Shown here piece after piece: positions 2,338 through 57,169 of a stretch of 64,000 nucleotides of DNA. Source of the stretch: Meghimatium bilineatum (taxonomy: Eukaryota > Mollusca > Gastropoda > Stylommatophora > Philomycidae); contig CM067298.1 in NCBI GenBank assembly GCA_034231615.1, positions 50,387,832-50,451,831 on the forward strand, written 5' to 3'. The notes beneath the pieces are model-generated. The model was not told where the DNA came from and searched no databases. It was given only the letters and a program-made list of their open reading frames with translations. Positions within the stretch are counted from its first letter, which is position 1. Each line of letters opens with the position of its first letter. A program made the translations under genes and the position numbers.

Positions 2338-2596
2338 CGATCATGTGTTGTTGGGGCCCAAGAGGGAAGCAAAGAATAGCAACACTGTTTACCGTCCATT
2401 CATGTCATAAGACGTGACTAAGGAGGTTATGGGATGGAGTTGGCTGTCCCATCCCATATAGGGTCAGTAACCCAAAGCCATGCTGAAGTTGGATGTGTCA
2501 GATATCGCAGCAATGCTGTAAACCATGACACAACGTATTCCATTCTCCAGACTACATTCTGCTAATCTGCAGGAGTTAAGAACGAACACAGAAGAT
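2338..2596 (+). repeat. SINE-like family B, copy 1
   Basis: The copy carries the family B signature: gtgttgttggggccc near the 5' end, ctaaggaggttatgggatgg, ccaaagccatgctgaagt, gatatcgcagcaatgctgta, and a 3' module ending ctgcaggagtt..gaacgaacacagaag. It lies directly downstream of the RRM exon on the other strand. Confidence 0.8.
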
Positions 2597-2770
2597 GTAT
2601 GCTGGCAAAGATCAAAGGTCAGCATAAAAACTGAATATGATGCACAAATATAAAGTATAAATTTGTTGGGTCTAACAAAAAATAGCATTAATACATCAGA
2701 CGGTTACTCAAATTATTACATTTGTTTGATGGCAAAAACCAAATAAACAATCTACATAAACATGACTTAC

Positions 2771-12617: not shown

Positions 12618-15069
12618 CTAAAGCTCGGATTTTCATGAAATGTCATATTTTTTTCCTGAAGCATATTTTCAGTTTTAAGTTAATTTCTACATGTTTCAAG
12701 CATTTCTGAACAATTTTAAGCTGTTTTTATTTGTCATATAAATGCATATTTTGACCATAATTTTGATGAGGTCATATTTTGCCTGAAATTGGAGATTTAG
12801 GTCATATTTTGCATATTTTCTGGTGTACTCAACGTTCTGGTGTACTCCGTTTTCTTATCAATGTTAGCACATCTTAAACAATGTTTAGAGACAAATTGTG
12901 AGGATTGGCTATATTTCTGAATGTGTGTATTAGTGAATATGCATGTGTGTCTTTCATGCGACTGTAGGGAAGGGAAGACATCAGTCAACTCTTTGATGTC
13001 AGTCGGCATCTGATAATCAAAAAGGGAGTGACATCCGCTCAATACTTCAAAAGAATTTTCTGGGTTTTGTTTCGAAAAGTAAATTCTAGGAAACAATTTC
13101 AAATGTTTCAACGTCAAGAGCGAATATTCCTGGATTTGTTAAAACTTCCAGTTTCAATTTAAACCGTTTGGCGCCCATTTGTATGTTACAATTATTAATT
13201 TGCCATTTGCAACAGTGACTACATGATCTCGTGCTCTAGCTCATAGTTATATAATAGTCTTAATAATAGTGTTATATTTTATATTGTTTATGGTTGATTC
13301 ACTGGAATAACTTTGTTTTACAATGCCTAAAGTGTCTAATTCTAATGGTGCAAAATTGCGTAAATTTGTGCAGGAATTTGGTTCAAAAGTATTTAGTGCC
13401 GATGGAGAAATATTGTACTGTACACTGTGTGAGGTCAAGGTTACAGCTGGAAAACGGTTTAATGTGCAACAACATTGCAATACTTCTAAACATATGAAAT
13501 GTTTAAGTAGACTTTCTAAAATGGAAGGAAGACAAAGTTTATTACTTGAAAAATGTTCTGCTACTTCCTCTTCTTCTTCGGGAAACACAGAGACCGGTTT
13601 TTATAAAGATTTGTGTCATATGATGGTTTCATCAAATATCCCTTTAAATAAATTGCAAAATCAATATTTCCGACAATTTCTGGAGAAATACACTAGCCAT
13701 CCTATCCCAGATGAATCTACTTTAAGAAAAAATTATCTCTCCTATTGTTTTGAGGACATGTTAAATAAAATTAGAAATTCTATTGCAGATAACAAGATAT
13801 GGGTTTCCTTAGACGAGACTACTGATGTAGATGGCAGGTTTGTCGCAAATGTTATAGTTGGAACTTTAAAAGGAGATCAACCAGGAGAAAAATGTGTCCT
13901 TAACTGTGAAGTTCTTGAAAGAACAAATCATACCTCCATAGCTGTTCTATTTGATAATTCCATGAAGCTGTTGTGGCCAAATGGAATAGAAAGAAATAAT
14001 ATCCTTCTATTAATAACAGATGCTGCTCCCTATATGAAAAAGGCTGCTTAAGGACTTCAAATTCTCTACCCGAAATTGATCCATATTACTTGCCTTGCTC
14101 ATGCACTGCATCGAGTAGCTGAGGAAGTTCGAGGTAATTTTCCTGATGTGGACAAGCTTATTTCAAATGGGAAAAAAATATTCATCAAGGCTCCTCTTCG
14201 AGTACAAAAATTCAAAGAAGAAGCTCCTTAACTACCACTTCCTCCACAACCTATCCTTACACGTTGGGGTACATGGCTGGACGCTGTAAAGTATTACTGT
14301 GACAACTATTCAACACTAATTAAAATATTTAATGCCCTAGACAAAGACGACGCAACATCAATACAAGCAGTGCAAAGCTTATTTTCTACCAGACTATCAC
14401 AAAATCTGACTTAAATAAAGTCAAACTTTTCGGCAATTTCAAAAGCAATAAAACGTCTGGAAAGCGAAGGGACTGCACTTTATGATGCATTAGATATTGT
14501 GAAACAAATTCAAACAGAAATAAATGGATCACGTGGTGAAGTAAGCAGCAGGATTAAAGTAAAATTAGAAAGTGTTCTTCATAGAAATTCTGGTTATTTC
14601 TCATTGTGCAAAATTGCAGACATACTTAGTGGTAAACATGCAACATTTCAAGTGGATGAACCTGAACTTTCAGCAAATGATCTGACATTATTTAGATTTG
14701 CCCCTGTGACATCATGTGATGTAGAACGAATTTTTTCAAAATATAAAACAATTCTCAGTGACAATCGACGATCGTTCAAATTTGAAACTCTAAAAATGCA
14801 TGTTGTTGTCGGTTGCAATTGTACAAACAATGAAAACTGAAGAATAAATGTGGTAAGTGTTTTTATACATGCTTTGTTAAGTATTACTACTATGTAGGTA
14901 CTATGACTACTATGTAATGCGTAAAACATGCAAACAATAATAATTTGCGGTTTTTTTGGTTCATAAATGAGAAAAACCTTATGGTCATATTTCGGCATAT
15001 TTTGCCTTTTTAGGTCATATTTGCATGTCATATTTCAGGATTTTTAGGTCATAAAAATCCGAGCCCTAG
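12618..15069 (+). mobile_element. hAT-superfamily DNA transposon with terminal inverted repeats
   Basis: The left end at 12618-12637 (ctaaagctcggattttcatg) and right end at 15050-15069 are inverted copies with about 17 of 20 positions matching. Subterminal motifs of the type TCATATTT recur about five times at the left (12640-12815) and four at the right (14985-15035), as hAT transposase-binding clusters do. Candidate 8-bp duplications agree only partly. The element carries one transposase-like gene. Confidence 0.75.
13323..14840 (+). pseudogene. hAT-like transposase with three in-frame TAA stops
   Basis: A single reading frame of 505 codons runs from ATG 13323 to TGA 14838 without a frameshift. 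TAA codons at 14049, 14229 and 14412 interrupt it. The N-terminus has a BED-like zinc finger (YCTLCEVKV...H..TSKH, residues 37-59), as in CGGBP1-related transposases. IWVSLDETTDVDGR carries the first catalytic Asp region and LLLITDAAPYM a second. [16 protein letters not shown] follows the first stop. The C-terminus APVTSCDVERIFSKYKTILS is the hAT dimerisation region. Each stop could arise by one C-to-T change from CAA. Otherwise the frame looks recently intact. Confidence 0.85.
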
Positions 15070-15079
15070 TAACCTTTAT

Positions 15080-15252
15080 TATTCTTCTTCAGTTTTCACT
15101 CTCAAACTCCCGCTGGTTCTCCCTTGTAGCGGGACAATGGTCCTACTAGATTTCCAGGAGGATGTAGTCCAGATAATGAAAATGCGTTGTGTTGTCATAT
15201 TATTTGCGCCAGACCCAACGAAGACGGATGTATCGGGCCATTGTCGCACATC
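15080..15252 (-). repeat. SINE-like family A, copy 1, with inverted 5' end
   Basis: From the GAA-rich tail at 15080 the copy follows family A on the minus strand to about 15212. From 15213 to 15250 the sequence flips to the plus orientation of the same 5' region (cgaagacggatgtatcgggc), giving a head-to-head arrangement. Confidence 0.75.
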
Positions 15253-15970
15253 TATCCATCTTTAGCAGCAGGCCATCCTCTTGTTGTTCATTGTTTAAAG
15301 TAAATATTACTCCTGTGGTTTACCCAACCTCCAAGAAGTAGGGTACCAGGCTCATGCGTTTGAAAGTTCAGGAATGACGAAATCACTATTGAGCACGTGC
15401 GATATGCGACGTTATTAAGGCGGTTTCTGGTCAAACACTGTCTATATAGATGAGCACTGATAGGAAACCCTGTACTATTATTCTGGGCCATAAATCATAT
15501 TACCTTTACCCAAACATTCATTTTGATATCGGATGTGTCAAGACGAAAGGTGCAGATAATGGACCCAAGCTGTGAACTATGCCATATGACAATCAATACA
15601 AAATACTGCGTGAAACGTAACAACAATTAGACTTACGTAAAACATGTTGTTATTGAGACGAAATATAAACGTGTGTTTTACGTAAGTCGAATTATGCCAT
15701 ATCGTATTTGTTATCTGAACTATATGCTACAAATAGCTTGAGTTTGGAAACGAACGCAGAGGGATAACAAAAATATGATTTAATGAAAATATATTATAGG
15801 TAAATACAGCATATTTTTCAGACGATTTGTCGAAAATATATTAGGCCTAAAATATTTTGCAGAAATTGTCAATTTTACGTGCATGGCATTTACTTGATAT
15901 CTCAAAGCTAATATGCATGTAGTTAGATGTACCGGGTGTATTTTTACAATATAGGCCTACAATGAATCAT
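15253..15970. other. Unassigned AT-rich sequence with a hairpin
   Basis: No gene is supported. A perfect 15-bp inverted repeat (gacttacgtaaaaca) occupies 15630-15644 and 15674-15688 with a 29-nt spacer. Confidence 0.45.
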
Positions 15971-15989: not shown

Positions 15990-18560
15990 GATATTACAAC
16001 CGTATATGGAATATCTGCGGGTCTTACCACAGAATTCTGGATATATCTAGAAATTCGTGGTCTTACAAATGGTCAACCAACCATGGAGGTTCGAGAGAAC
16101 CAGCAAAACATTGGACAAGGCGAACCTATACCTGAAGTCATGGAGGCACCAATCACAATGAGAGAACTGGAGCATGCAATATCCAAATTAAAAAAGTAAA
16201 AAGTCCCCTGGAGCTGATGGAGTGTCCAATGAAATGATTAGAAACCTGGGAATTGCAGCAAAAGCACAGCTACTGCAGATCTTTAACACAAGCTGGTCCA
16301 CAGGTAATGTACCACAGGCATGGAGAGAAGCAATAATGATACCACTCCTCAAATCAGGAAAAGATGACAACACAGTCTCCAACTACAGGCCCATCAGCCT
16401 CACAAGCTGTCTATGTAAAACAATGGAGCGCATTATCAATCTTAGGATGCAGTGGTACCTTGAAAGTGAAAACCTTCTGGTATCACAGCAAGCAGGTTTC
16501 AGACAGTGCTACTCTACTGAAGATCAGGCAACCTACCTCTTCCAAGAGATTGAGGATGCCTTCCAAGAAAAGAACTGGTACTAGCAGCATGGATAGACCT
16601 CAGGAAAGCATTTGATAAGGTCTGGAAAGAAGGGCTCCTAAAGAAATTGCAGGGTTAGCTCAAGAATGTACAAATGGGTAAAAGCATACCTGCATAATAG
16701 AAGAGCCAGGGTACAATTAGATGATCGCAAGAGCAAGAAAGTTCTACTGCGTCATGGAGTCCCCCAGGGAGGAGTCCTGTCACCCACACTTTTCTTGGTT
16801 TACATCAATGACCTAGTTGCTGAACTACCACACGGGATCAAAGTGGCAATGTATGCTGACGACCTGGTGCACGGAAGAACATGCAACAGTGGCCACTAAA
16901 CAAATACAAAGAGCTATCGATGCCCTAACCTAATGGGCAAATAGATGGTGCATCAGCATTAACACAGATAAGTGCAGCACTACACTCTTTACTCTCTCAC
17001 CAAAACAAAAAGCTGGTCATATCAAGATAGATGGAGAGCTCTTGAAAGAAGACAAACAACCCACATACTTTTGATGATAAGAGTTACTTTTGATGATAAG
17101 CTGACATGGAAGCAGCACATAAACAAAGCAACAACAAAAGCCAGGAGGAAGTTAGCTATCCTGAGAAAACTAAGTGGAACCACATGGGGAGTCAGTGGAA
17201 ATATACTTAGTAAAGTTTACCAGCAAGGCATAAGACCACACCTGGAATATGGTTCAGCTGCGTGGTGTCCTGCATAAAAAACCACATTACAAGATCTAGA
17301 TAAAGTGCAAAACCAGGCACTTAGAATAATGTTGGGAGCAATGAAATCAACACCCATAGCAGAGATGCAGAAAATGGGAAGAATGCAAACACTTGGCGAA
17401 CGCAGATACACAAAAGTACTAATTCAAGCAGAAAAGTTCCAGTGTATGCCAAGTCATCCAATGAAGGAAAGATTCTAAAATCTAGCAATGGGGCGACTGA
17501 AAAGAAGCAGCTTTATCCATCAAGTTAAACGACTCCGTAGACAACTTACAGACCTACCTGAAGTTGATAGCCCCTTAAGGTCTGTACCAGAACAAACCCC
17601 GTGGAGTGAAAGCCATGGAATGCCAATATACATTCAGACCCATGTGAAAGGAATACTAAGCGAAGACGAACAGAACAGTGTGCAGCGAATGACAGTCACC
17701 CTCAGTTTCCTGGATGAGGAATATCCACAAGATATATGGGTCAGAGTGTACACAGATCAAAGCTCTATGGGACACTATATGAACTACAAAAGACAGTGAG
17801 TTTTATTAAGGAGACAGAATTACAGATATAGACATGCTTCAAGTGAACGAAAGAAGAAGAAGAAGAATGGAACAGAAAACCTTAGTAGATGAAATACCTA
17901 TATATTGAGACTTGTTTCTTCTTATGGTAGTTTTATTGTATTTAGAGTATACAGTTAGGGCCTATGTTTCTCGTGGTTTAAAACATTATTTAAATTGTTA
18001 TTTGTATGCTGCCTATGCATGCTGCCTCGATGGTTGGGAGGGAACCAGACAGGGCTGTGGCTAGATTTTCTTAAGGAGGGGGGGTTTTACCTTAAAAAGA
18101 AAAAAAAGATAATTTGTTCGTTTTCATGTGTAAATTTTCCCATTTGATGGGAAAATTGAAGTCCTTTTTGTGAAAAATCGCTATGGGAGGGTTTTTACTG
18201 ACCTTTTGGTTAACTAGTACTAAATGTCATGTTCAGATTTGCTGCTGGAGGAGTTTGACCACTCAAAACCCCTTATCTATGGGCCTGGAGCCGGAGTTGT
18301 ACTGCGCAGTATGAAGGAAATGGGGACTGTGTGTTATTTTTCGATGCTTTAGTCCATTATAATGGACTAGTGACTGAGGACATGATAAGTCTTTGCTTTG
18401 AATATTTGGTTACATGCTGTCTGGAGCCATAGAGAAGATCTGTGTAAACAATAGGCAAAATATAGCGGAGACTAGGCATAGTCAACCATATCTATGCTGC
18501 AATAGCTTGGAGCAATGTGTAGATGCAGATACGTCTTCGGTAGAGAAGGTAGCTCTTGAC
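15990..18560 (+). repeat. Repeat family D, copy 1, split by a LINE
   Basis: Left part 15990-16089 (gcgggtcttac...ggtcaaccaaccatgg) continues after the LINE at about 17868 (aatggaacagaaaaccttag). It runs to about 18560 through blocks also found at 20035-20465. The uninterrupted copy at 20035 shows that the two halves belong together. Confidence 0.6.
16076..17870 (+). pseudogene. Jockey-like LINE (family C) with RT and truncated RNase H
   Basis: Fragments in order: KSPGADGVSNEMIRNLG (16200), NYRPISLTSCLCKTMERIIN (16380), QQAGFRQCYSTEDQATYLFQ, GVPQGGVLSPTLFLVYINDL and MYADDLV (16760-16870), then FDDKLTWKQHINKATTKARR (17085) and the start of an RNase H domain (WVRVYTDQSS, 17735). The RT active-site YADD is intact, but frames break at several points. 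RNase H jumps straight to the 3' tail at 17757, so an internal deletion has removed the rest of RNase H and the Cys-rich C-terminus. The 3' end is gtgaacgaaag followed by (AGA)n. Confidence 0.8.
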
Positions 18561-22700: not shown

Positions 22701-25700
22701 AGAGCTTATAAGTATTTAACCTAATTGTCAGAGGGAGTAATTCTAGATAAGGGGAATCCCAGTTGTATTGGAAATGGCATGCTTGCATCTGATGAATTTT
22801 TCCCAGCTTGGCACCCTATTTGGTGCCTTATTTCTCAGAAATATGCTATTTTTCTGTAATTAGTGATAGGCTTTCACTAGCACACAAGAACATTACACAG
22901 GCATGCAAGTGAATATACTTATAATAGATCCTCAATTGCATCTTCTAAGACAGAAGGATTGCCACAAAAGAAATAGAGACAACTCATACCCCCTGAGAAG
23001 TTGAAGGTAGAGGAAGAGAGCCAGCCAATCTTCCTGATGCTGTTGCAGCCTGCAATGCTGCTGCCAACTGAGATGCAGTGATACTTTGACCAGTGATATT
23101 TCCTCGTGCTCTGTTCATCTACAAAAACAAAATCATAATTTTTATTCTTTTTTAAATTACATAATACTACGGATAAATATTTGCTCTGTTTATTTTTCTT
23201 TATCTATTGTATGTTATAATAATGTAAAAATTTCACTAACAAATATGTTACTAGACTAATCAGACATCTTGTATTGTTTTTCTTGAATGAAGAAAAGCTG
23301 CAATTACAACATCTAAGGTACAGAGCAGTACAGATAAAAATTGGATACACATTACATATGAACATTTAATAAACTTGCTAACTGTACAGCGTTAAAAGTT
23401 CACATTGAGTAAGAAAAAGTAAACATCTGTGTATAAGCTGAGAATTTTTGAATTTTTTTCACTATTGAAGTATGGAGTTCAGCTTATATACGAACACAAT
23501 AAAACATTAAAAAAAATTATTACTGGTAGAGTCATAATCGATAATACGGTCAAATAGGTCTATTGGCAGCAAGAAAAACATTTACTGGTACAAAAAGTTA
23601 TTAAAATCCTTCAAAGTCAGAAACACTGAATTCCGCCGAAGACGGATGTGTTGGACCATTGGTGCAAATAAAACGGCAACACAACGCATTTCCATTCTCT
23701 GGACTACATTAAACTGGAAATCTTGTAGGATCATTGTCCTGTTGCAAGAGAAATCCAGTGGGAGTTTGAGAATTAACGCTGAAGAAGAAGAAACACTGAA
23801 TTCTGAAACAGTTCAGGAATTTCACCCTCTGTAGTGGATATCATCAGTCTATGCCTCACTGTCTACCAGCACATTGTCGAAATTGTGGAGCGCTTTTTGA
23901 AAGATTGTGCGATCATGTGAAGCTATACTGTTTTCATACGATATCAGCTGAAGAGAAAGTAATAATCACAAAAATGATTCTTATGTGTTCATTCTCAAAA
24001 CTCCCTCAGATTTGCAGGATGAGTCAAAAGAACAGGTCGTCAAATTTGGTCAGAAAAGTTTTTCCTGATCACCTGGTACTAGTTTTTCTTGAACATCTGG
24101 TACTAAAATGGTTAAGCACCATGCACTTCCACCGGATTCTATCTTATGTGTATCAGATCTTTATATGATGACTGAAGCTGCAAACTTTAAGGACGGGAGT
24201 ATTCCTCCAGTTTTAAGCATAGATGCAACTTCCTTCCCTCTGTGCTGAAGGTTAATAATATTCATTGTAGACAAAACTAGCCAGTATGAAATGAAAAACT
24301 TGTCACATTGATATGTGCAAAAAAAGTATATCTAAAAAGTACGATTTCATTGTAATATAACAATACAAATTGTATGTCACTTAATAGAATGTACTGAGTT
24401 GCATATAATCGTCATTTAACACTTAGTGCTAACATCATTGTTGCCATGTTTCTCAAAAATTACAACGTTCTCACATATATTAATTGCACTACTTTTTGTC
24501 AACAATTTTCATGTCACATTTGAGCCAACAAACTTTATGTCAAAGACAGATGTGTCTGGATTCTGACACAAATAAAACAATGCATTTCCATTGTCTGAAC
24601 TACATCCTGTTGTTAATCTAGTAGGACCATTGTCCTTCTACAAGATAGATCAAGCAGAAGTTTCAGAATGAACAATGAAAAAGAGCCAGCAGACGACTTC
24701 CTCTTAATGAAAAACATTGTTTTCATTGGTTTTTTTTACTTCATCTGTGTGATATAAACATTTTACCACTATTGACTGCATAGACACATACTGTTTGGGA
24801 ATTTTCAGAGCTTTGAAATATTTTTTTTTATTGTTGATATTTGTACATAATTATATTTGGGTTTTTCTTCTGCAATGTTCACTCTCAAACAATCAGCACA
24901 AATTTATGTTTGATTTGAACTGGAGAGTGAAAAATATGTTGTGTGCTAGTTTTATAGCAGAGCTGCATTATTTGAACCTTTTGATCCATAAAATCCAATT
25001 TTGGCATGTCAATTCAGCTTATATACAGATTAAATACTTTAGAAGTATTTATTATATAAAAGTACCATGCTCTGCTTATATACAGATCAACTTATATACA
25101 GTAATATATGGTATTTTATGATTCAAATACTGCTTAATAATCAATACAAAGAACTGTCACATGACATATTCTTTCCAGAACATAGTCTTCCTTATGAATC
25201 TTCAGAAATCCCAGCAGTCCTGGCAAGTTTCCCACTTCCTCTGCGTTCCAATTATATTGACAATATAAAAATACAAAGAACTACATACAATATATATCAA
25301 GTGACATATTCTTTCCAGAACGTTGTTTCCAACATGAATACTCTGAACTCCTTTCTGTCCCAGGTAAACAGGCCTGCATTGGCCAGAGACATGTGCATAC
25401 ATTCTTCGCTGTCACTGGCCCATCATCTTCTTGGTCCTCCTCTTTTTCTCTTTCCTGCAGAATCACTTTCAATACCATCATGTTGTTTTAAGTGTTCAAA
25501 ATACTGTAGCTTCCTTTTTATTATGGTATTTAGAAGCCACCCGTAATTTTTTTCAGTAATGTTAAAATTTCAATCTTCTTTTTCTCTGTCCATGATATTC
25601 ATAAGATCTTTCTGTAGCACTTTATTTGAAATGAATTTATTATTTTAGATATTGTCTTGTTTAAAGTCCAAGTCCATATGTTGCCACTGAAAAAACACAT

Positions 25701-28700
25701 GATCTTAAAAGGGTTATTTTAGTGTTGTTATTACTACTTTGGCACAGCTTTCTAATTTGTGTTAATTTGAGTGTTGCAATTGCGAGTCTTCTAATCTCAA
25801 CTGAACAATCTCTGGAACTGTTTATATTTTCTCCCAGATATTCAAATTTGTTTACACATTCTAGTTCTATATTGTCTATGTTGATTATTGGTTTAATCTT
25901 TGTTTTGTCTATTGTCATAATTTTTGTTTTTGTGTGCATTCAGATAGAGATTTTGGATCCCACTGTATTGCTTGTTGTTGTGATTAGCTATTTAAGTCAC
26001 TAAGGATGTGTAGTAAGGAGGACTGCGTCATCTGCATATATTATATCTGGAATCCTACATACATTATACAATTAAAATGAATAAGAAGAATGGCTGAAAA
26101 TGATCTTCCAAATTATTAAATTATATCAAAGGCAAAAGTATATGATATACATGCACAATCATGTGTTGAAAACATTGCATGCAGACAACAGATACATAAG
26201 AAAAATTTACTCATAAATCCTCAATTCTTCTATATTATATTATTCAACCTACCTGTGGCATTTCATCATCATCATCATCTTCTGACATCTGATCCATAGA
26301 ATATGTTAGGTTTCCTGAGAAAATTTCACCTGAATAAGTTATCATATAGCAAGAAAGCATAATCAATAAAACAAAAATCCTTTTCATGCAGATAATATTT
26401 ATATAGTGAATGAAACAGCATGACAGATACCTTTATGAAGATGAAAAATTCAGCTCAAAAAGTGGAAGTATAATTGAATCCAGATAAGACATAATATATG
26501 ATAATATTATGCAGCAAAAGAGATCACTGTCCTGCTCACATAGTTGATGAGGTTAAATTAAGAAGCACATAAATATTGAAATATTTAGCAGGAACATTTG
26601 ATAGCTCAAAGAGTGATAGATGAATTTGGGGGTAGAGTTGGCTGCACATTCCACAGATCAAATTGACCCAAAAGCCATGCTGAAGTTGCATGTGTCAGTC
26701 TGAAAGATGCATCTATCACAGTAGTGCTGTAAACTCTGACAAAATACATTCCATTCATTGGACTACATTCTAATAATCAACAGGAACTTGGGAACAAACA
26801 CAAAAAAAGCAAGTTCCATAGGACTGTTTCACTTATTGTGGCTGTAGGATGCAGTGTCACGTGCGATGCAGTCTTCTACTCCAGAGGGAATTTTGTAGCA
26901 ACTTTCTTGCAATCTTGAGGTATGCAGTAGATAACTAAGTCTGATTCACTTGCAGAAATTCAGGAATTGGTCTTCAGTAGACTTCATCACAGTAAAGATC
27001 ATGTTAACACTTTACCAACCAGTAATCCAGAATATACTTATCTCCCATTACCAAGGGTGTCTGCGCATTTTTGAGACATTGACAGCACCGACTTTAAAAT
27101 CTGTACACAAAAAAAACTCATGACATAGAGCTTTGAAATTCTCTATGCGGCACAATGTGTGTTAGAATTTTTCAAATGAATTTAAAAGTGCCAGCATTAT
27201 TTCAATAGTGAAAATATATTTACTAAAATGCTGGGTTTGAACATTCTATGTAAACTGCTACAAAAACTTGTCTTCCAAAATTTCTGATTTTTCAAGAATA
27301 ATACTCATAACTCATGACAACAAACTGCATTTTGTGGGTGCTACTATCTTGAAATGATATATACTATTCTGAATGAGTCATTCTTAGTAATACTATCCGT
27401 ACCGCTGCTGTATTTCTGAAGTATCGTAACAATTTCGACGATCGTCAAAGTTGGTCACCAAGGTATGGGACAGTAAGGGAAATTCACTGTCAGCAAAGTG
27501 TTACTTTCAGTAATCCTTGCTTCATTGGAGAGACAAGTCAGTTTATAGGTGTTCCACAAAGAAGTGAAGATTGGTCTAACTAAGTCCTAACCCAATTGTA
27601 AGAAGCTCAAACTTTACTCATCTCAGCACTCAGAGCATTGCAATAAAATTCATTTTATCATACTTGCCTGTACCATGTTTCTGGCTAATCTTTGCACCTT
27701 CTTCATTCACTGCAGATGCAATAGTTATGGCAGCTTGAGCAAACGATGGGTGAAGCTGCAGCAAACTGAAAGAGTAGGAAGAGAGAACACAAAACATAAG
27801 TACATGCAATATTTCAACTAATTTATTCTATACACAAATAACAGCAGCAGAGTAAAATAGATCAGTTGCATACATATTTTGTTTGCAGGAAATAAAACAC
27901 AATTTTGGGAGAATATGAATATGCGCTACATCATGCCTACAGGCACAATAATGCATGACTAAGCCCTGATAGATACAGCATGAGTCGCGGGTACGGAACT
28001 TCATGAAGTTACGCTCATATGACATTGAATTCCCACCAAACAAAGCCAGGGATACGTCACAGTCTAAAGGTCAAATTCCTTTACACAATATGATTGTAAG
28101 AAGGAGAAAGCTGGCTGGTTTTGTCAACACATTTCTGGAGTGACTTCGGCCATTTTCTGTGCCATATTTTACTATCAAATTGAGTTCCGCGTGGCATGGG
28201 TAAGTGATCGTGACTACATGTTCTAATTGTTGTTTTTTGTGTTTAATATGTTGTTATTTGATAAGAATGTGTGTGTATTCATTCAAAAATACAAAAATAA
28301 TATGTATCAGGGGTGCCACATGTGTGCATGGACAATAATTATGCTGTGTGTTGGCCTAGACCTAGTGTTGTTGACCGGATGGACATTTTATGCGATTTCT
28401 TCACGTTTTATTAGTTTTTTAGTCCATATTATATTAGTTTGGATATGAAACAATATATATATACAACAAGTATAGGTATTTAGGAGGATTTTTATCAATA
28501 TTGCCATACAGTGCTCAAGTATTAGGGTCGTCAAGAGTTATATTTGCAATTTTTTAAATGGCATTTTGCGATTTTCTCCCAATTTTCAACTTCACAACTT
28601 GCTCACAACTGTCATATCACATATACAACAACAACAAAACACAATAATATTCACTCCTTTATTTACATGTACAAAATTCTTTTGATATCTGTTAAAACAA

Positions 28701-31700
28701 AAAAGTTATTGTGTTTTCCAGATACCCACAATAAATAAGGGTGATATTGCGTAATTTTAATTCAGGGCTCTAAAGGTGAAACATGTCTATATCTGTAATT
28801 CTGTCTCCTGAATAAAACGTCACTGTATTTTGTAGTTCACACAATGGCCCATAGCGCTTTGATTCCAGTGTTGTTTCTTCTTACCAATATGCCTGCCTCA
28901 GCGTTTCATACTCACAGCACTCTTGAAGTATATATTTGGCACTATGTGCTGCCTGTCCACATGACGCAAATAATGGGTCATTGACGCAAATAAAACGGAG
29001 ACACAACGCATGTCCTTTCTCTGGACTACATCCTGCCAGAAATCTAGGAGGACCATTGTCCTGCTACAAGAGAGATCCAGCGGGAGTTTGAGAATGTACG
29101 ATGAAGAAGAACATAAGCAATATTTACTTTCAGAAGATTGTGATTACTTTATGAATCTCACATTTTCCAAATTAATTTATTACAGGTCTTATGAACTAGT
29201 AAGGCTACGGTCCATCTGTAATACTGCAGTTGATTTAAAACCTGATACAAGTCAGGCTTGCACAGTTGTGAAACATACTCAGAAACTATCAGTTACAATA
29301 TCTAGCATTTATATTTTACAGTTTGACTCTGATAACTTGCAATTTGATATTTTGTAAGATCTTGGACAGTGCATATAGTAATTATAAACCAATCTGGTCG
29401 GTCAGAAAATATGGCTTGGCGGACCAGGTGGTCATATTTTTCTCACTACTGTTCTATAAATGTACAGGTATGTTAAAAAGAGTCGATCTCTCACCTGCAG
29501 CCTAATAATCATATCCACAAGTAAGGTTTAGAGTTCCTAAGTATGCATAACATGTACATTAGTTACAATACAAACCTTTCCATATTATTAGGATGGGCTA
29601 GCACAGCCAAGAGCTCTGGATCTTGTAACATAGCTGCAAAGTATTGAGATATGATTTACACAAAAATAAAACAAAACAGATTAGTTGAGATAGAAACTAA
29701 AAAAAAACAAATACATTAACACTGATAATAACTTTTTTTAAACTGCACAAAATTCTGTGAATTTCTTCAATGTCTAGGTTTTACTTCAGTCTTTCTCACA
29801 AATGAATGCACTTATTGACAAAAATATGCTATCTTTTACAGACCTATTATGATTAAGCACATGGCTTTCAATGAATGCACTAGCATACATGCAATAACAT
29901 ACAATATCTAGTGACACTAATATATTTCACTTTAAGATCTCACTGTTGTTTCAAGAGTTATATTGATTATTGTGAGCCTGTGTTCTATGACGATATTTTA
30001 AAAAGCTTGTCTTATCTGTCTATCTCTCACTACCTCTCAAGTCTCATACTAGATTTTCTACTCTTGTAGGAGCAATGTGATGGCTATATTGACTTTATTC
30101 TCATAAGATGATTGGAATAATGTATTTTATGTCTCCCTGCATATTTTATAATAACACTGTAAAATTTATTAACACTTTACTGGCCAAATTTGGGTCGTCA
30201 AATTTTCATTATACATTTTAGGTGACCAACTAGAATAATATAATACAAATGAAATAAATAATATTATATAGAAGGATTAAGGATTTATTATTAAAGAATA
30301 AATAATAATGCAGAAGATGGGATGCTCAGATGGCACCTATTCAACTTGAGTCACCATGTTTTCAGAAAATTAAGTGAACCGGGTTTTAATCATGTTTGAT
30401 GCATTAGTATTTATTCTTTCATCTGGGATAGTACATCATTCTAAAATGGCAGAACTCATAAAATAAGTCTCTCAATATGGTTTACGCTGTTATTCTTTAA
30501 AACTCAGAAATCCTGGAAGATGAGATTTTGTGAAACATAAAAAGTAATGTAAATCTATGTTTAGCATTATAATAAGTAGGATTTCACTATTGAAATAACA
30601 CTAAAGTTTTCAAATTCATTCAGAAAACACAAAAATTCATTACAACACATGGAGAATTTCAAAGCTGTATGTTATGAGCGTAATTTTTATACACATTTCT
30701 AAAGACCATTCTATCAATGTCTAAAATATTAGTAATTACCCTTAGTAATGGGGGATAAGTATGCTCAGAATTGCTGGTCAGTAACATGTTAAGAGACATG
30801 ATTGCAGATATTGCAGGTGAAGAAAAGAAGAAGAACAATAGTGTATGTTCATACAATATTATAATGTCTATTATCTTTATGTCATTTCTGGAAATATTGA
30901 TCCAACTTTTTTTTTTACTTCATGATATCTGGCACATTTTAAATATCTACTTTCAATATTGTCCAAGTAAATGTAGTTTTTGCTCACCCAAAACTGAAGG
31001 ATCCCCCAAAACTGAAGGATCCTTGTCAAGCCCTGGTGTGGTTGCTATGATGTTCTCTACAGTTTCTGGATCATTTAACATTCTCTCAACCTGTAAATAA
31101 TTTAAAGAATGAAAATGAATCGATAATCTACATCATCCACCAAAAATACATACATACATACATCAGGAATAAACATAACAACATAAAATAAACTAGAAAT
31201 TAGTATAACACTAGGCGAATTGATAGTATAGGTCTCCACTGTGCTATAAATAGTGCACTGTTTACATGAGCACCATGGATTTCCCTTGAAAAATCAATCA
31301 TATCGATAGAGGCCGTGACATCTCACACCGCAGACGAGAATTCTTAGAGAATTAATTAATTCTAAATACTAATTCTAATCCTTCTAACCCCCAGAAAAAA
31401 ATCTATAAACTAATTATAATTCTTCTAACCCCCCCCCCCCCAATTTATAGCCTTACACAATTTACCTAACACTGCAAAGGTTAGGTAATACCTCGAAACT
31501 AGAACAAAGGTTACAGTGGAGACATATACTAACAATGGGGCAAACACTAGTACAGATAGTTTTTTCATATCTTAGTTTAGATTTTGAAAACAAGTCAATG
31601 TTATGTGTACAACAAAATAGAAATGAACATTTGTTTAAACTATATGCTAAAGTCAGTGAGAAGGTGAATAGCTCTGATTAAATGTTACATTCATCTATGT

Positions 31701-34700
31701 TCACTTCAATAAATGAATGAGGTCTATGGTCAGATTCATCAAAAACTCCTATATAGCTTTTACATGTGCAGTTTCTATAGACATTAGACTGATATGATAA
31801 GATTGTTAATCCCATAGAAGTTCAACTGGTACAGTGCTGATTTATTCAGCCTCGTACACGTGTCAAGTAATTTACTAAAGTTTTTTTGGTTATCTTTTTA
31901 TCATCCAACTGTTACATTTTCTGTAATTTTGGATGTACTACAGTTTATAAAGTGGAATACCTACTCTTGCCAGATATTCTACTGGTCCCTGTTTAGCATT
32001 TTTCTGTATTTAAAAAAGGCACAGCATTTGAATCAAAGAAAAGAAAGCTATTTTTCTTTAGAAAAGATTGTCTATCTATCTATTGTCTTTTCTCTGCTTA
32101 TACTGTGAGGCATCTGCAGAGAAAAGACAATAGAAAAGACTGTAGAACTAAAAAATACTTACAATTTTTCTATACTCATCAACAAGTAAAGCAGATTGTA
32201 TTGCCATGATGACATCACTTTTACTTGAAGAACCTGCACGTCCTGCATAATCCTCTGGTAAATAGAAATTGAAAATATGAGTTCACAAGCACACAGTATG
32301 CACACATTTGTCTGATGTGCCTATAGTTTATTATTCACTATCAAAGTATCAGTACACAAAAATATAGAGTATACCAGTTTTACAAGTATAGCAACAAATA
32401 ATTTCAACATTTGACCAAAAGGTCTTTAACAAGCTCTGGATAAGTTAATAAATCATCATCATTTTAATCAACAAGTGCCATGCTGGTTGGCATAACGATC
32501 ATGGAGCTCTATATCAGTAGTTTCATTTCCCTGTGTGCTGCCAGGGCCCGAGAGGAGATCAAAGAATAGCAATACTGTTTGCCTTCCATGCATGTCGTAG
32601 GGCTAAGGAAGTTATAGGGTGGAGTTGGCTGCCCCATACTATATAGGGTCAAAGTGACCCAAAGCCATGCTGCAGTCAGATGTGTCAGGCGAAAAAGCAC
32701 AGATATCGCAGCAATGCTGTAAACCATGACACAACGCATTCCGTTCGCCGGACTGCATCCTGATGGTCTGCAGGAGTTTGTGAATGAACATAGAAGAAGT
32801 AGTAGTTCCACTGCTGAACCTCTTGCATGTCAATTCTCAAGACTATCCAGACTATTTTCTCTTTCTCTCCCTGTTTCTCTTCTTGAGAGCTTCACATGTT
32901 ATTAAAATATGCTCATAACATATCTCCTCATAATGTATCAAAAAATAATGACTGCTTGTTTGATGTTTCCAAGAAATTTTCTATATGCATTTGTCTCTGG
33001 AAATACCTCTTCATTGCTTCTCTTAATTATGGAATGACTAACAAATTAATTTCATTCGTAAAATGAATCAACATAAAGTATAACAAAATTGGGTTCTTTC
33101 CTAGTACACGGGTGCCAGTAATTTAACCCAACTTTTACTAAATGTGTAGCGAAATATAAGGCAAGGTAAGGAGAGAGAACTGGTACCGGAAAACAGTTGT
33201 AACAGACAACGATTATGACTACTGGCCATGGAATGCGAATAAATGAATATGAGTTAGGTGGAATGTGGGAAAAGGTAGAAAGCATATTAAAATAGTAGGT
33301 GCATCAATCAGTCATTAGAAACAAAACCAATTAGAAAAAAAATGAGTACTTCAGGTAACGGAAAGTTTGGCAATGTTTACATTTTGCTGCATTCGTGACA
33401 TTCATTCATCATAGGCATAATGTTTTGCTGCACTTACGACATAGGCCTAATGTTGTGTTGCACTTGCGACATAGGCCTAATGTTTAAATTTTACTACAGG
33501 TAGCTAAACCAGTATTGTCGTGTTTAAATTTTGCTATAAATTTTGCGACTTAGGCCTAATGTTTTGGTTGGCAACAAGTTGTTGCAACTGGTGCGTTAAA
33601 AACTAGAAACCGGAATAAATTATTAAAAACGCGAAGTCGGTATATTGAAAAGTGTGACATCCGGCACCCGCGTACTAGGAAAGAACCCAAAATTGCACTC
33701 ACAATACATATTATACTATATTATTTAGTATATAAAAATTGACACAATTTAGCTCCAGAAAAATACTTAGACAAGCTACTATGTATTAAGATATGAAATA
33801 GATTTCCAACTCACAAAGGTCAGAAAATAATGTATTACACTTACATGGTACTTATAAAATTCTGTTGGTTGAGTCAGATAGTAAAGGATTGCATTGACCA
33901 TATTTATAAAATCTTTTTTGATGAATATGTGTGAAGGGTTGGCATGGAGATATGTAATAATTTTGTCCAAGATTACATCTTCTTCTTCTTTCTGTCCTCA
34001 TGTACCTTTCGGTGTTGAGGGGAGAGTGATTGTACAGTATTTTGTCCTTCTATTTGCCTCTTCTGCTGTTATGTTTCCGAGTGTCTCTAATACACTATCT
34101 ATCCACCTTTTACGAGGGCGTCCAATAGGTCACCTGTTTTCGTATCGTTTGTTAAGTGTTTTTGGATAATACTTTGCTCTTTCTGTAGGGTTATGTGGCC
34201 GTACTTGTTGTTTCTGGATATATTCTATTGTTGACTTGATCCCTAATTGTTTCCTTCGTGCTTAATTCCTGATTTTGTCTCTCATGCTAACTCCAATTAT
34301 ATGTCTCACATATTTCATTTCAGTGGTGTTATTCTTATAAATTGTTCTAGAATCTAATGTCCAAGTTTGACACTGATAACACAACGTTGGTAAATAAAAA
34401 GGGTGTTGAAAAGTGCTCCAAGATTACATATTCACTGATAATTTGTGATACAAAATGCACAGATGTGACACATCTTCTACGACGCTTGCTCACTTATATT
34501 TATAACCTTTTACATTTCTGTTGTTGATAATCATTTGAGAGTAATTGCAACTTATTAGTTTACAGCAAAACTGTGCTATTTGTGCCTTGTGACCCAACAC
34601 ATATATTTTCATGAACATTTCAGCTTCAACATTCTACAAGACAGACTATGCAACACCATAAGCAACTTTCTTTAGTTGCCCTCTATTCTCTTACTCATAT

Positions 34701-41950: not shown

Positions 41951-42615
41951 AAGAAGACTTCGCTTCCCCATGATGCCTAGCGGCACACATAGATAGGACA
42001 AGACAAGACAACAACCCAGGTCTGGGCTAGTCACTGAATGGGTGGGGCAGCTAGAAAAGCATTTTCCATCATCCAAGGGGGCTCCCTGGTTATGCAAGAC
42101 TAACATGTTTGTCATCTGGTTTTTGGCTCACTCAGGGAATTGTCATGTCCTGCACAGTTGCTTTTCATCACACCCAATGTGCCATTTGATCATAGCCAGC
42201 ACCATGGTTAGGGCTCTAGCTCATCTAGTTTCCTAGCATGATTTGCAATGCTGGGTTCTCTGAATATTGTACCACAAAAGGGAAACATAATTGTACAACT
42301 AAAATGTGAGCTTTTCACAAGAGGAACTGGTCCAATAGGAAAACCTCACTTAACTGAGACTAAATATCTATTGAGAGTTTACTTTTGCATTATGGTTGGT
42401 CTGATGTGCCAATAATAACTTATAATCCTGTGCTGCACCCCATATCTACAATAGTTAGTTCAATTTCCCGTCATGTGTCTTCACAAAGTTCTTGGTCATC
42501 ATTATTTATTTTTAATCTGATGCTCAAGTGAGGGAAGTTCTTGCAGGAACACCATGGAATAAGTCTGAATGTGTGACACTAAATCACATATTTTCTGAAA
42601 GTTGCTTACATTTGT

Positions 42616-42771
42616 TCCGCCAGATGTGTCGGACCATTGTCACAAATAAAACGGTGATACAATGCATTTCCATTATCTGGACTACTTTCCGCTTAAATAT
42701 CTAGTAGGACCAAGTTCCTACTACAAGAGAGATCCAGTGGAAGTTTGAGAATGAACATTGAAGAAGAAAAA
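42616..42771 (+). repeat. SINE-like family A, copy 5, complete (156 bp)
   Basis: Flanked by gcttacatttgt (42604) and gcttagatttgt (42772), 11 of 12 matching. It starts tccgccagatgtgtcggacc (the aagacg block is deleted) and ends gaacattgaagaagaaaa. Confidence 0.85.
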
Positions 42772-42783
42772 GCTTAGATTTGT

Positions 42784-43850
42784 AATTTTGTATTACTAAA
42801 TTTAAAGGACAGCACAGTAAAAACTAAATATTGAAATAAGGAAAACAATGCACTCAATTATGGATAATAATACTCAAATATGCAGTCATGTGAAAACATG
42901 CAAACATAGAAAACAATACACAAAATATGGAAATGCTCAAAATGTTTTGTAATTGTTGTTCTCTCTAATTTTATTTTCTTTAATACACAGATCAGTGTAA
43001 CATTTTCGTTGTTTTATTGCATATTTAATAATAAAAATAAAATGTCTTACATATTACACTGTACTGAAATGCTGAGAAGATCCAGTATGGGCTTTAGTGA
43101 CACAAATAAGAAAGTAAATATAAATTAATTTTATTCTGTTTTATCATCTTTTTCATCAGTAGTAGTAGGTGTCTGTAACATATATTTACTTATGAAATTT
43201 CTTATAAACAGTACACAGTATAACTAGTCTACTTGAAAATAGTAATCACTGAAACTCAATTTGAATATGTTTTATACATACTCTTAACAATGCAAACAAA
43301 TAATTGAAGAAAAGAATGGCTTATCCTGAACTCTTCTCTTCTCGATTCACTCTATCATGATCACTTATAGTCCTACTTTTATGCTTACTGGCAACTGCTA
43401 TGGAAAAGTAACACTTACTTCTACTGCCTGTTAAATTCTTCTGGCACTCATTAACAGGAAAACAAACAGTAATGGAATTTCTAAAAAAATATATCCATCT
43501 ACTGTTTCTTTTGCGATCAGTTGTTAAACACTCAGTCCGATATTGGTCATGTATACAGCAGTTTATTTTATGTCACATTGAGTTCCTTACAACTTTCTTT
43601 GCAGAGAACCTCCAGTGGGCCAGACTGTCATTCTATGAACAGCAAAACTGGGACATTTTGTGACCATTTCCTGTATGGTGCATGGATTCAATTGTATTGC
43701 GTAAACTTCCCTTATCAAATTCAACGCCTCATGGGTTAGTGGTTTCCGATTTCGATGCTGGGTAAAATCTTATGATACCTATATGATAGCTGGTAGAATT
43801 TTTTTTTTTTTTTGCATGTAGAATATGAAGAACGTATTGTCATCATCAGG
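42784..43850. other. Sequence without recognisable gene
   Basis: No domain was found in the short frames here. A T-run of about 15 lies at 43801, preceded by a weak tRNA-like stretch (catgggttagtggtttccga) that I could not confirm as a SINE. Confidence 0.4.
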
Positions 43851-45083: not shown

Positions 45084-45239
45084 TTCTTCTTTAGCGTTCA
45101 TTCTCAAACTCCTGCCGGATCTCTCTTGTATCAGGAACATGATCCATTCTAGATTTCCTGCAGGATGTAGCCTAGATAATGGAAATGCATTATGCTGTTT
45201 TATTTGTGCCAATGGCCCGACATATCCGTCTTTGGCGGG
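45084..45239 (-). repeat. SINE-like family A, copy 6, complete (156 bp), perfect TSD
   Basis: tgatgttgtac flanks it at 45073-45083 and 45240-45250. On the minus strand it starts cccgccaaagacggatatgt and ends gaacgctaaagaagaa. It interrupts the RT frame of the RTE remnant. Confidence 0.92.
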
Positions 45240-45599: not shown

Positions 45600-47665
45600 T
45601 GGATTGTCTCATGATGGAGATGTTGTTTGTGAGAGACTATATCAGTATAGTATAAACATGAGATTTAATGCCATCATCCGTACAGTGTACTAAAGAGTAT
45701 AAGAACAAACACACGTTGTAAGGAAAACTGGAGAGGAGATGGGTTAAACCTTTTGCTCACTAAAATATTGCAAAATACCCCAGATTACATCTTTTGTATT
45801 TTTTCCCAAACGCCTGCGATCAATATGGTGTCGTTAGTGCATTCAACAAATACATGAACTTTTGAGACAGAACTACCTAAACAAGAGCTTCTGTAAGACA
45901 TGTCCAATGACATTGATAATATGAATGAACTTTATAATGTATCTATTAAAGCCACTAAAAAAACCAGTTTCACTGATGATTATTTGGTCATCTTTATAGA
46001 TAGAGCCATGAGTGGATGTCATGACAATGTGCATGGAACCAACAGTTTCACCAATAATCAAGAAAAGAAGATTGGATTGAATATGCTGGCAATAACTGCA
46101 AACTGCAACGAAATCCGTCAGATGGGAAACAAAATATAAAAAATATATGTTTAATCTCCACATATAAGATCTGAATACCTCATTAGTGGCACACCAGACC
46201 AACCATTATGCAACAGTGAATCCCTAGTAGATAACAGCCTATATACTCTCTCCTCTTGTGGACTCACATCACTTCATCTTTACAATTACATTATCTTCCA
46301 TATCGGAGAAGGATGCTTATTTTCAATTTATTACATGTAGCGGAGAATCATCAGTCTTTATGGGTATGAAATAAATCTGTAGAGATTCCCTTTCCATCTC
46401 CCCAAAAATTGTGTAAAAAGATACAAGAGGTCTATTTTCATTATTTCTATGAATTTAAATAAACATATAAATTGAAAGATTATTTATTGAAATAAGATGA
46501 TAATATTATAAGTACCAGTAAGAGAAAAAATATAAAGAGTTGACCATAATCAGTGTATGTATTTACTATTAAAAGAGGAAGAATAGATAGGGATCTAAGA
46601 CAGGTAGCCTTCAATGTGGAGAGTGAATTATGAAATAAACATGTTATTGTCTTCTCTATCACACAACTGTGAACTTTTTTAATCTTTAAAAAGGATTTGC
46701 ATTTTCCCTATTTGTTTCCCTATGATTTGCATTATAAGGAGTAATTATTGCAAATAAATTACAACCATACTTATGAGTAGTAAAGAAAGTAAAATTTCAT
46801 AATTTTTATTTGAAAAATAAATATGACATGCCACCACATTTTACAAGCATTGAAATGTAAATATGGAATGTATTATAATTTTGTCCATTACTCACTTCTC
46901 ATCACCCTGTGGAGCGCAAGTAATTTAGGCCTATATACAATTTAAAAAAATATATAGGCCCTATATATATATATATATATATACACACTCATACTTAAAA
47001 AATGTACCTTACATCATCTTATCTGTTATTTGGTGTTACTAATCACATTTGTTTTTATAAAATTACTTGATTGTTTATATTTTTCTGTCTGCTTTCATGT
47101 ATTTTATATTGAGTCCCTCATTATTCCTTTGCTTATAATTTGTTTCTGACATTCTTGCAAATTATATTATATCCTCTTGTGCCTTCTGATATGTCTTTTA
47201 AATTTCTTGAACTGGCTTACTTCTCTTTATGTCTTATGTACAGTGAGGCAGATTATACATCCTATTTTCTTTATAAGTTATGAATGTGGGAGGACATGAT
47301 TGTCAAAAGGTGCAGCCCTTGCATAAAATTTAACTTACCATGCACACAATCCACAACTAAAGACCTAATAAAGAAATATTAAAAAATCACCCCCAGAGTG
47401 ATATTCAAAAACCACTTTTTGTGTGCCCAAACAGCTGTCTGACCTGTGCACACCGGAAAATTATTTAGAGGGAAAGCAGGTCACATCCAAACAATACAAT
47501 ATGTTATTGGATTATTTTTACTCCTTTTCAGATGGGTGTGATATAAATTGCTGTGCCCGTTGTTTTACAAATGAATTTTTACTACATGTTCAAATATAGT
47601 ATAAATACCAATAACATAATTAAGAACAATTTTTTTATCCATCTTACACCATGCAAATGCAACAC
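45600..47665. other. AT-rich sequence without recognisable gene
   Basis: A family D fragment lies at about 46170-46290 and a (TA)n run at 46961-46982. The short frames, including a 79-codon one at 45900, show no known domain. Confidence 0.45.
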
Positions 47666-47668
47666 AAC

Positions 47669-47940
47669 TTCTGCATTAATTCTGAAACTCCTGCAGATTA
47701 GCAGAATATAATCTGGAGAAAGAAATGTGTTCTGTCATGGTCTACGGCTGCACTGTGATATATACCACTTTCTGCCTGACAGATCTGACTTCATAGCTTC
47801 TAGGTCACTTTGACCCTCTATGGGATGGGGCAGCCAATTCCACCCCCAAACCTCATTAGTCACATATGACATGAGCATGCCAGGCAATAGTGTTGATATT
47901 CTTTTCTCCCATTTGGGGCCCTGGCAACACATGTGGTCAT
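47669..47940 (-). repeat. SINE-like family B, copy 4
   Basis: Reverse-complement family B from ctgaaactcctgcagattag through ctatgggatggggcagccaa to ggggccctggcaacacatg. Length fits a nearly full copy. Confidence 0.8.
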
Positions 47941-48719: not shown

Positions 48720-49510
48720 TGACAATGAGGAGACTTAAGACATAATAATGAGAAAAATGTGGGCTATTTCAAAAAGTTTCCAACTGGGATGCTTTCTTCA
48801 GTAGGAGTGCTGGAGTAATTGTATACAATCATAAAGGGATTACTTTGAAGGAGATAGAACCTCTAGTCTGTATAATGGTTTCCCAGAACAAATGTTTTTC
48901 CCTGGAAACTTATTGAACAGTGCTTGTAAAGTGTTTTTTTATATAAGATATGAGATTTAAAATACAGAAATTTAGGAAATATCTATCTATCTATCTATAT
49001 GCTGAAGCCCTTGTGGGTAGAAGAGTTCTCTAGAGATGGCCTTCCTGTGTGCTGTTTATAAGCTTGTTTCTGTGGCTTCTTTGATTTCTGTGATTCATCT
49101 TTTACATGGTCTGTCTCTGGCTTTATAGCAGTTATGCCTATGTGTCATGGCCATCTGTGGTATGCTGTCTGTTGGTAGTCTGGAAGTGTATGAAAACCAC
49201 TTGATCTGTTGTCTTCTGCTGTGTTCCAATACTGGTATTATTTTGGTTATCTGTCATATGTTATCCTTTCTAATTCTATCTCATAATGACACTCTGAGTA
49301 TTCTTCGCAGACATGTCATTTCTGCTGTTACTATTTTTCTTTTGACTTGTGCTGTCATAAGGAAATATGTTGGGATGAAATACACAATATAATCCTTCTG
49401 GAGGATAAGTATGCAATACTTAATTTTATTTCATTTCACAGCAAATTCTGAAATTATTATAATTAGAACAAACTTATAGTTGCTTTAAGAAACATAAAAT
49501 ATATGGCACT
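48720..49510. other. Sequence without recognisable gene
   Basis: It contains a (TATC)n microsatellite at about 48981-48998. The 81-codon frame at 49147 resembles decayed reverse-strand LINE text and no domain is claimed. Confidence 0.4.
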
Positions 49511-49512
49511 TA

Positions 49513-49770
49513 TGTGTTCATTATAAAACTCCTGCAGATTAAGCAGGATGTAGTCTGGAGAACAGAATGTGTTTTGTCATGGTTTACAGCTTAGCTGTGA
49601 TATCTGCACCTTTAGGCCTTCTGCATCTTCAGCAAGACATCTGGGTCACTTTGACCACATATAGGATGGGGCAGCAAACTTCACTAAAAACCTCCTTAGT
49701 TGTGTCTTACGACATGCATGGAAGGTAAGTAGTGCTGCTATTCTTCGTTCCCATTTCTGGCCCCGGTAAC
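49513..49770 (-). repeat. SINE-like family B, copy 5
   Basis: Reverse-complement family B: aaactcctgcagattaagca, tataggatggggcagcaaac, gacatgcatggaaggtaagt, ggccccggtaacat. It is moderately decayed. Confidence 0.75.
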
Positions 49771-50499
49771 ATATAGGTGATATATGACATAGCTCTGAAT
49801 TGCATTAGCACAACCATAACCATGCTGTAGGTGGATGGTTCTGCAAACGTTATTCCATGTCTGGATTGCAACTGGCTAAAGCATCCAACTCTGTTGTTAG
49901 GCACACTGCAATAAATGAAGAAACCCCAATTTTTAATATTTTGGTTTCCAGATTAGAGAAATCTGGCAAGTATTCAATTGACTTTATTTTCTGGCAATTT
50001 TAGTGGACACCATGTGCCGAATATGGTTGAAATATGAAAATCTTCACAATCTGCAGAAAACTGGACATTATTATGGTACCTTAATAGTGAATCAAGTTTT
50101 ATAGACTTTTGTTTTTCATATTTTCAGTAAAATCATTATGTATTTTCATTCAGATGATGAAGTCTTGAAAGGTAAGTTTTCACACTTGAAAATAGATTAG
50201 ACCACGTGCCTACTTTAATTTGAAGTTAAACATCAACTCATCAACTATTTCGGGATTGATTCAGATTTGGACAAGATCTAGCTTTAGAGAATGATTGCAT
50301 GACAATTCTATAAGGTTTATTCATTTTCCTCCATTAAAATATGACAATTTGACCATAAATACTGTAGAATTAGGTCTGTATCACACTGTTGCCATCCAGG
50401 AAATTTCCAAAAAAAGGTTAGAAAATTTTATTACCGGTAGGTATAATTTTTAAATTTTTTTTTGGGTTATAATTTGTTAGTTTTTTTGTAAAAAACATC

Positions 50500-53674: not shown

Positions 53675-53979
53675 TTAAAGAAAATTATATGTATATTTTA
53701 AATATAATATATTTTAGGTAACTTTAAACACAAGCTGATACAGAAGTTTACCCGTTAACGCATCAATAACATTTGTATAAAAAAATGTCATCTGCTTTGA
53801 ATAGTGTCATGACATCAATCATTTTGATTGGATGTCGCACAGGAATTTTGTAACATAAATTAAATATTTATAGAGCATTCTGGAGATGATAGAACATGGT
53901 TATTATATTATAGATTGATTTTAAAAATAAAATATAATGCATAAATTAAAAATAATTTCGGACAAATTAAAATAGAAAC

Positions 53980-54255
53980 TTCTTCTTCTGCGTTCGTTCT
54001 CAAACTCCTGCAGATCAGCAGGATGTAGTCAGGAGAACGGAATGCATTGTGTCATGATTTACAGCATTGCTGCGATATCTGTGCCTTTCGGCCTGACACA
54101 TCCGACTTCAGCATGGCCTTGGGTCACTGACCCTATATGGGATGGGACACCCAACTCCATCCCATAACCTCCTTGGTCGTCTCGTACGACATGCATGGAA
54201 GATAAACAGTGTTGCTATTCTTTGCTCCCCTTTTGAGGCCGACAACACACGGGCG
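53980..54255 (-). repeat. SINE-like family B, copy 6, full length (276 bp)
   Basis: Flanked by aaaatagaaac (53969) and aaaatcggaac (54256), 9 of 11 matching. On the minus strand it begins cgcccgtgtgttgtcggcct and ends gaacgaacgcagaagaagaa. It is the best-preserved family B copy here. Confidence 0.88.
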
Positions 54256-56595: not shown

Positions 56596-57154
56596 CCCCA
56601 TCAAGGCCAGCACCGTACAGTGGTGATGGGGCTTAGTTCAGCCATCAGGGGCTGAAAACTAAGACTGGTCGGGCAGTCCCATTCGAGCAGGACCATAGTC
56701 CTGCCCAAGTAAGCAGAGTGCTGAAGACGGAGGCATCCAGCCAAAAGGCGCACAGATAATCAGGATGCCACGCACAAAACACAATGGAAACATGTCTGTA
56801 TCTATAAAAAGTTATGGTGCCTGCCCTGTGGCAGACGTTCAGGCAGGGACGGTGCCGGGCCCAATACCTCGAAAGGGCCCAACCTCAGTTACTACTCCGC
56901 TGTCACATGTATACAAAGTTCAAGATTGGCAACACAGCCATGTGTACATGTGGACAGGCAGCACAGAGTGCCAAACATATACTTCAAGAGTGTTCTGAGC
57001 ATGAAACGCTGAGGCAGACATATTGGCCAGAGGAAACAAAACTGGAATCAAAACTCTATGGGACACTGTATGAACTACAAAAGACAGTGAGTTTTATTAA
57101 GGAGACAGAATTACAGATATAGACATGTTTCAAGTGAACGAAAGAAGAAGAAGA
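56596..57154 (+). mobile_element. Internally deleted LINE family C copy, 559 bp, perfect 12-bp TSD
   Basis: attttaaaatgc flanks it at 56584-56595 and 57155-57166. The 5' end starts ccccatcaaggccagcaccg and forms a hairpin with tgatgggg. The 3' part encodes TKFKIGNTAMCTCGQAAQSA and KHILQECSEHETLRQTYW, the CCHC-like C-terminus of ORF2, and ends GAAAGAAGAAGAAG. Endonuclease, RT and RNase H are absent. Confidence 0.88.
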
Positions 57155-57169
57155 ATTTTAAAATGCAGG

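Follow-up and report, generated by a model that had tools for sequence, protein, structure and literature searches.

The definition of a SINE usually includes a pol III promoter derived from a small RNA gene, and mollusc SINE families and MetaSINEs offer possibly comparable hosts and repeat context. In a repeat-rich 64-kb stretch of the Meghimatium bilineatum genome (the whole of the DNA analysed here, referred to below as the window; 35% GC, from an assembly of 1.61 Gb in 32 contigs), a first-pass annotation had picked out a short family, flanked by duplications, whose 5' end is fixed and in which no pol III promoter could be seen, which raises the question of what this element, family A, is and how it is copied. 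That reading largely holds. A is a genuine short retroposon that looks recently active in this genome, and it is best read as a SINE-like element that a LINE mobilises and whose head is of unexplained origin.

Family A is a discrete non-coding repeat of ~155-165 bp with one 5' end and a GAA tail. Its copies share a 5' end at about (R)CCGCCGAAGACGGATGTG and a 3' end of the form ...TGAACGCTGAAG(GAA)n, in which the length of the GAA run varies from copy to copy. The window contains six copies that are full-length or nearly so, together with weaker fragments of A and of a longer family, B; the matches to the six-copy A model span 23633-23791, 28956-29113, 42617-42770, 45237-45083 (minus strand), 15220-15079 (minus strand) and 24538-24687. 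The p values given for the duplications at each copy compare duplications anchored to the element ends with 4000 random placements.

23634..23788, plus strand: A copy of the youngest subfamily; duplication AGAAACACTGAATTC, 15/15 (23619-23633 and 23789-23803), p 0.00025
45084..45239, minus strand: A copy in a LINE reverse transcriptase (RT) frame; duplication GTACAACATCA (minus strand), 11/11 (45240-45250 and 45073-45083), p 0.00025
42616..42771, plus strand: A copy with a short 5' internal deletion; duplication 11/12 (42604-42615 and 42772-42783), p 0.0015
24534..24682, plus strand: diverged A copy; duplication 10/12 (24522-24533 and 24683-24694), p 0.20, not significant alone
28956..29113, plus strand: A copy with an altered or truncated 5' end, adjoining a 3' fragment of the LINE that we call LINE C; no clear duplication, p 0.43
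15079..15255, minus strand: A copy with its first ~31 nt inverted (15219-15251 on the plus strand), twin-priming-like; weak duplication, p 0.08

The copies that the first-pass annotation had reported at 23634, 42616 and 45084 (minus strand) lie where it placed them, and all three carry duplications beyond chance by the anchored test. Its duplication lengths of 11/12 and 11/11 for the last two stand, while the 13/13 given for the 23634 copy has to be extended to 15/15, and the 10/12 match at 24534 is present but does not carry weight by itself. At 45084, removing the insert together with one copy of the GTACAACATCA duplication rejoins an RT frame that is then open across the site, and beyond the insert this frame has an RVT_1 match (E 5.6e-13). 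A second RT-bearing LINE, at 43850-45460 on the minus strand, is split both by this A copy (45084-45239) and by a LINE C 3' fragment (44047-44231, 13/13 duplication), and the nesting of these insertions gives a relative order of events. Elsewhere in the window, a plus-strand frame at 4449-5117 matches DDE_Tnp_1_7 (E 1.2e-17) and is presumably a PiggyBac-type transposase, and another at 13311-14051 (plus strand), which we take to be hAT-like, matches DUF659 just under the curated cut-off (33.0 against 34.7 bits).

A genome search with the 23634 copy turned up 3690 candidates at first look; 40 of these were scored, all of them nearly full length at 98-100% identity, and the best 30 of the 40 were fetched. 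Aligning these genomic copies with their duplications, as had been proposed at the outset, supported the family: duplications are found at the two ends of A in 30/30 fetched copies and are perfect in 26, with lengths of 10-16 bp in 28 and longer ones in two (L013 and L028) that sit in tandem-repeat flanks. The flanks of some fetched loci share other repeats, and the duplications are nonetheless locus-specific. Since the 155-nt core is identical in 21 of the 30, activity has been recent, although the fetched copies are those nearest to the query and so speak to recent activity and not to average age; 19 other fetched copies either match the 23634 copy throughout the core or depart from it at 2 to 3 sites. 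Genome-wide there are 62 exact occurrences of the young 43-nt 5' end (34 forward, 28 reverse), as against 0 for a backwards control.

A blind sample of 20 stretches of 10 kb (200 kb, with 2,500 N) contained 16 A and 18 B matches of at least 60 bits, a density of one A per ~12 kb that would amount to ~1.3 x 10^5, or about 10^5, copies per genome. Beyond the query set, A copies show 80-94% identity to an older consensus, and a clear duplication, taken as a score of at least 8, is retained in 9 of 23 older A rows and 4 of 26 B rows, the small share among the older A rows being what is expected of old copies. About 13 sites separate the young subfamily from this older consensus, with C-to-T and G-to-A changes predominating, as though the source copy had decayed for a time and then become active again. 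Exact patterns found no relatives in the viral_contigs and genome_contigs sets; when six family strings were compared with paper texts, a single one matched, in four unrelated Vibrio papers, and A may already have been published elsewhere.

The fixed 5' start and the GAA-rich 3' end described in the first-pass annotation are both seen across these copies. Among 30 A copies that score more than 60 bits and were not part of the genome query set, the match begins at model position 1-3 in 23, at 6-8 in 4, at 17 in 2 and at 36 in 1. A model of the first 48 columns gave 60 matches in 360.7 kb, of which 58 lie in A copies, 1 lies in B and 1 is an inverted 5' end, that of the 15220 copy. In young copies, GC, C or AC mostly precede CGCCGAAG once the duplication has been subtracted, which would place the start of A at about (R)CCGCCGAAG.

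Family B is ~270 bp long and consists of its own ~140-nt head followed by an A-like body and tail, with a 5' start fixed near CGCCYGTGTGTTG where duplications are clear. It is present at six places in the window.

53979..54254, minus strand: family B copy sharing the A body and tail
32526..32805, plus strand: family B copy; duplication p 0.028
2342..2600, plus strand: family B copy
49505..49775, minus strand: family B copy
47664..47935, minus strand: family B copy
26535..26827, plus strand: diverged family B copy

At 15519-15775 on the plus strand there is also what looks like a B-type copy, interrupted by a ~100-bp palindromic insert that has the ends AATTAGACTTACGTAAAACA and TGTTTTACGTAAGTCGAATT and the flanks TATGCCATAT. 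Over its whole length, from GAAGTCGGATGTGT to the tail, A aligns to the 3' half of B, with an internal stretch of ~38 nt found only in A and one of ~13 nt found only in B; because of this homology along its length, A is not an isolated family.

A is short, non-coding, dispersed and present in high copy number, and like a canonical SINE it starts at one fixed point and is flanked by target duplications of variable length; an internal pol III promoter derived from tRNA, 7SL or 5S RNA was not found in it. Using simple A/B-box patterns, we found that a box pair in the six-copy A consensus did not score above resampled sequence (p 0.96), nor did the B box alone (6 of 10, p 0.97), and the family B consensus gave p 0.60 for the pair and p 1.0 for the B box. 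ARAGORN detected no tRNA genes in the window, and Rfam searches at E up to 10 of the window, two A copies and one B copy (single copies, not consensus sequences) returned nothing relevant. The earlier remark that no pol III promoter is visible holds, on negative evidence: the consensus has no boxes beyond chance, and there was no relevant Rfam match. We also considered two structural features of the A RNA and found support for neither. For a 5' ribozyme, neither of two A copies matched an Rfam ribozyme family, at thresholds of E up to 10. For a conserved 3' stem-loop, an idealised, hand-typed consensus folded at z -3.6, but the true young sequence reached only z -1.7, with 21 of 500 shuffles equally low, and covariation in the proposed 3' hairpin did not exceed that of shuffles (85.1% paired versus 85.6%; 3 two-sided pairs versus 4.2).

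LINE C is a young LINE that shares this genome with A and presumably falls in the I group; four of its copies or fragments lie in the window.

16101..17868, plus strand: LINE C copy with its RT domain at 16192-16581 (RVT_1, E 8.4e-08), ending in AGTGAACGAAAGAAGAAGAAGAAGAA
44047..44231, plus strand: 5'-truncated LINE C 3' end; duplication AGGCTGTCATGGT, 13/13
56947..57158, plus strand: LINE C 3' end; 40/40 scored genome matches 96-100% identical
28777, minus strand: LINE C 3' fragment with the LINE C ending

The 40 scored 3' ends were drawn from 195 candidates genome-wide. In the RT region, 106/106 scored matches (of 69,856 candidates) span the whole query without stops, and a 1305-aa open frame is intact in 49 of these 106. 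A young copy at L040:3920-5900 shows a 5' inversion and a 13-bp duplication, GTTCACTTCTAGC, at both ends. LINE C bears marks like those of A, in the form of 13-bp duplications (44047 and L040) and a 5' inversion (L040). A locus upstream of one LINE C copy, L051, was set aside when it was found to be another truncated LINE.

The two elements also resemble each other at their 3' ends. LINE C ends in AGTGAACGAAAGAAGAAGAAG, and this end has an A-like form, TGAACG...GAAGAAGAAG. Within the window, a GAAC is found in the 10 nt ahead of GAAGAA at 9 of the 13 sites that belong to these families, versus 1 of 68 other sites. The similarity between the LINE C and A tails is short, and it beats 226 of 227 other GAAGAA sites, with p about 0.005-0.01 once sites with high scores to any of the families A, B and C are set aside. 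The enzyme that mobilises A would most likely be that of LINE C, as a young LINE with such a tail.

We consider it probable that A is a non-autonomous, non-coding retroposon, with an RNA made from a promoter of non-tRNA, non-7SL and non-5S type and inserted by target-primed reverse transcription, with LINE C as the most likely source of the enzyme and with B as a longer relative. In such a cycle the RNA would begin at about (R)CCGCCGAAG and would be reverse transcribed at TY|R nicks, where its GAA-repeat end could anneal to the exposed TTC/TYY primer; the reverse transcriptase would most likely be supplied by LINE C, which has a similar 3' end. Around the nick, 30 A copies were compared: T is found at -2 in 25 and T or C at -1 in 27, with A or G at +1 in 29 and A at +3 in 22, the purine preference at +1 being partly forced because the A tail consists of A and G.

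Several other origins for a short element with this structure have to be weighed against target-primed copying of a dedicated RNA. A could be an internally deleted LINE of the RIME/NARTc type, made of the 5' and 3' ends of its partner and using the LINE's pol II promoter. Such an origin has a trypanosomatid precedent, a 77-nt 5' promoter common to LINEs and SINE-like elements (PMC4748587, PMC8190864), and the resemblance of the A tail to that of LINE C would fit it. Against it, the 17-mer start of A is followed by non-A bases 9 times genome-wide (7 forward, 2 reverse, control 0), and each of the 6 that were examined belongs to A and has lost 5 nt. Moreover, no such site, among these 9 or the 62 exact 43-nt A starts, comes closer than 12 kb to any of the 106 scored RT regions of young LINE C, the nearest being 66.7 kb away, and we regard this origin as unlikely; the comparison rests on exact A starts near LINE C RT regions, and a diverged shared head falls outside its reach. 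The first-pass annotation had itself named a longer consensus as one thing that would overturn its reading, and in its simple form this does not apply: A does correspond along its length to the 3' half of family B, which at ~270 bp has a head of its own, but A is no simple truncation of B. Were A only a 5'-truncated B, or part of some other longer element, with its fixed end set by a strong stop in reverse transcription, it should not hold an internal ~38 nt that has no counterpart in B while missing ~13 nt that B has. The start at model positions 1-3 in 23 of 30 copies, the 58 matches in A copies and just 1 in B among the 60 to the 5' model in 360.7 kb, and the single start shared by young copies in differing flanks also speak against truncation, which we hold to be very unlikely.

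The finding of no internal promoter, together with a single fixed 5' end and a purine start, would also suit a set of retrocopies made from a small non-coding RNA gene of the host, one driven by its own upstream promoter. The two A copies searched have no relevant Rfam match, however, and the tail is like that of a LINE; subfamilies of differing age with diagnostic changes, along with the related family B, indicate copies that breed, so that a host RNA gene appears an improbable source. To a miniature DNA transposon we give almost no credence: it too would be short, non-coding and flanked by duplications, but the duplications of A vary in length from 10 to 16 bp, its 3' end is a GAA run of varying length, one copy has a 5' inversion, and no terminal inverted repeats were seen in A by eye.

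A retroposon copied in this way has relatives of several kinds among known systems. It resembles SINEs with LINE-related 3' tails in being short and non-coding and in its high copy number, variable duplications, fixed 5' end and LINE-like simple-repeat tail, and differs from them in having no tRNA-, 7SL- or 5S-type head and no A/B boxes that we could find. The MetaSINE superfamily and those named after the V, Deu and Ceph domains are set apart by a conserved central domain. Bird SINE families are described as having GC-rich heads of unexplained origin on bipartite RTE sequences (PMC7245038). A is like them in combining a SINE-like structure with a head of unexplained origin, which makes its missing promoter unusual yet precedented; unlike theirs, its tail resembles a different LINE, and nothing from the 5' part of a LINE was detected in it. 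The trypanosomatid RIME, NARTc and SIDER-type elements are likewise short, LINE-mobilised and without a pol III head. The LINEs and SINE-like elements of trypanosomatids have a 77-nt pol II promoter in common (PMC4748587) and some of the elements carry HDV-like ribozymes (PMC4035085), whereas exact sharing of a head with a LINE was not found for A, and the two A copies searched have no Rfam ribozyme match.

More tentatively, A and B may together form an animal SINE-like line that spreads without pol III and without a LINE promoter, numbering ~10^5 copies and still active, with a head derived neither from a small RNA nor from a LINE and bearing a start signal of its own, probably for pol II; we see this as a possible but doubtful extension of the reading of A as a LINE-mobilised retroposon. 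At least one published curation of SINEs, in bivalves, required a tRNA-related head predicted by tRNAscan-SE (PMC10294476), and a filter of that type would discard elements such as A. Family A is young, has copies that are identical and a start that is defined, and probably has a young partner LINE in this genome; the production and mobilisation of a SINE-like RNA without a pol III promoter can thus be tested directly.
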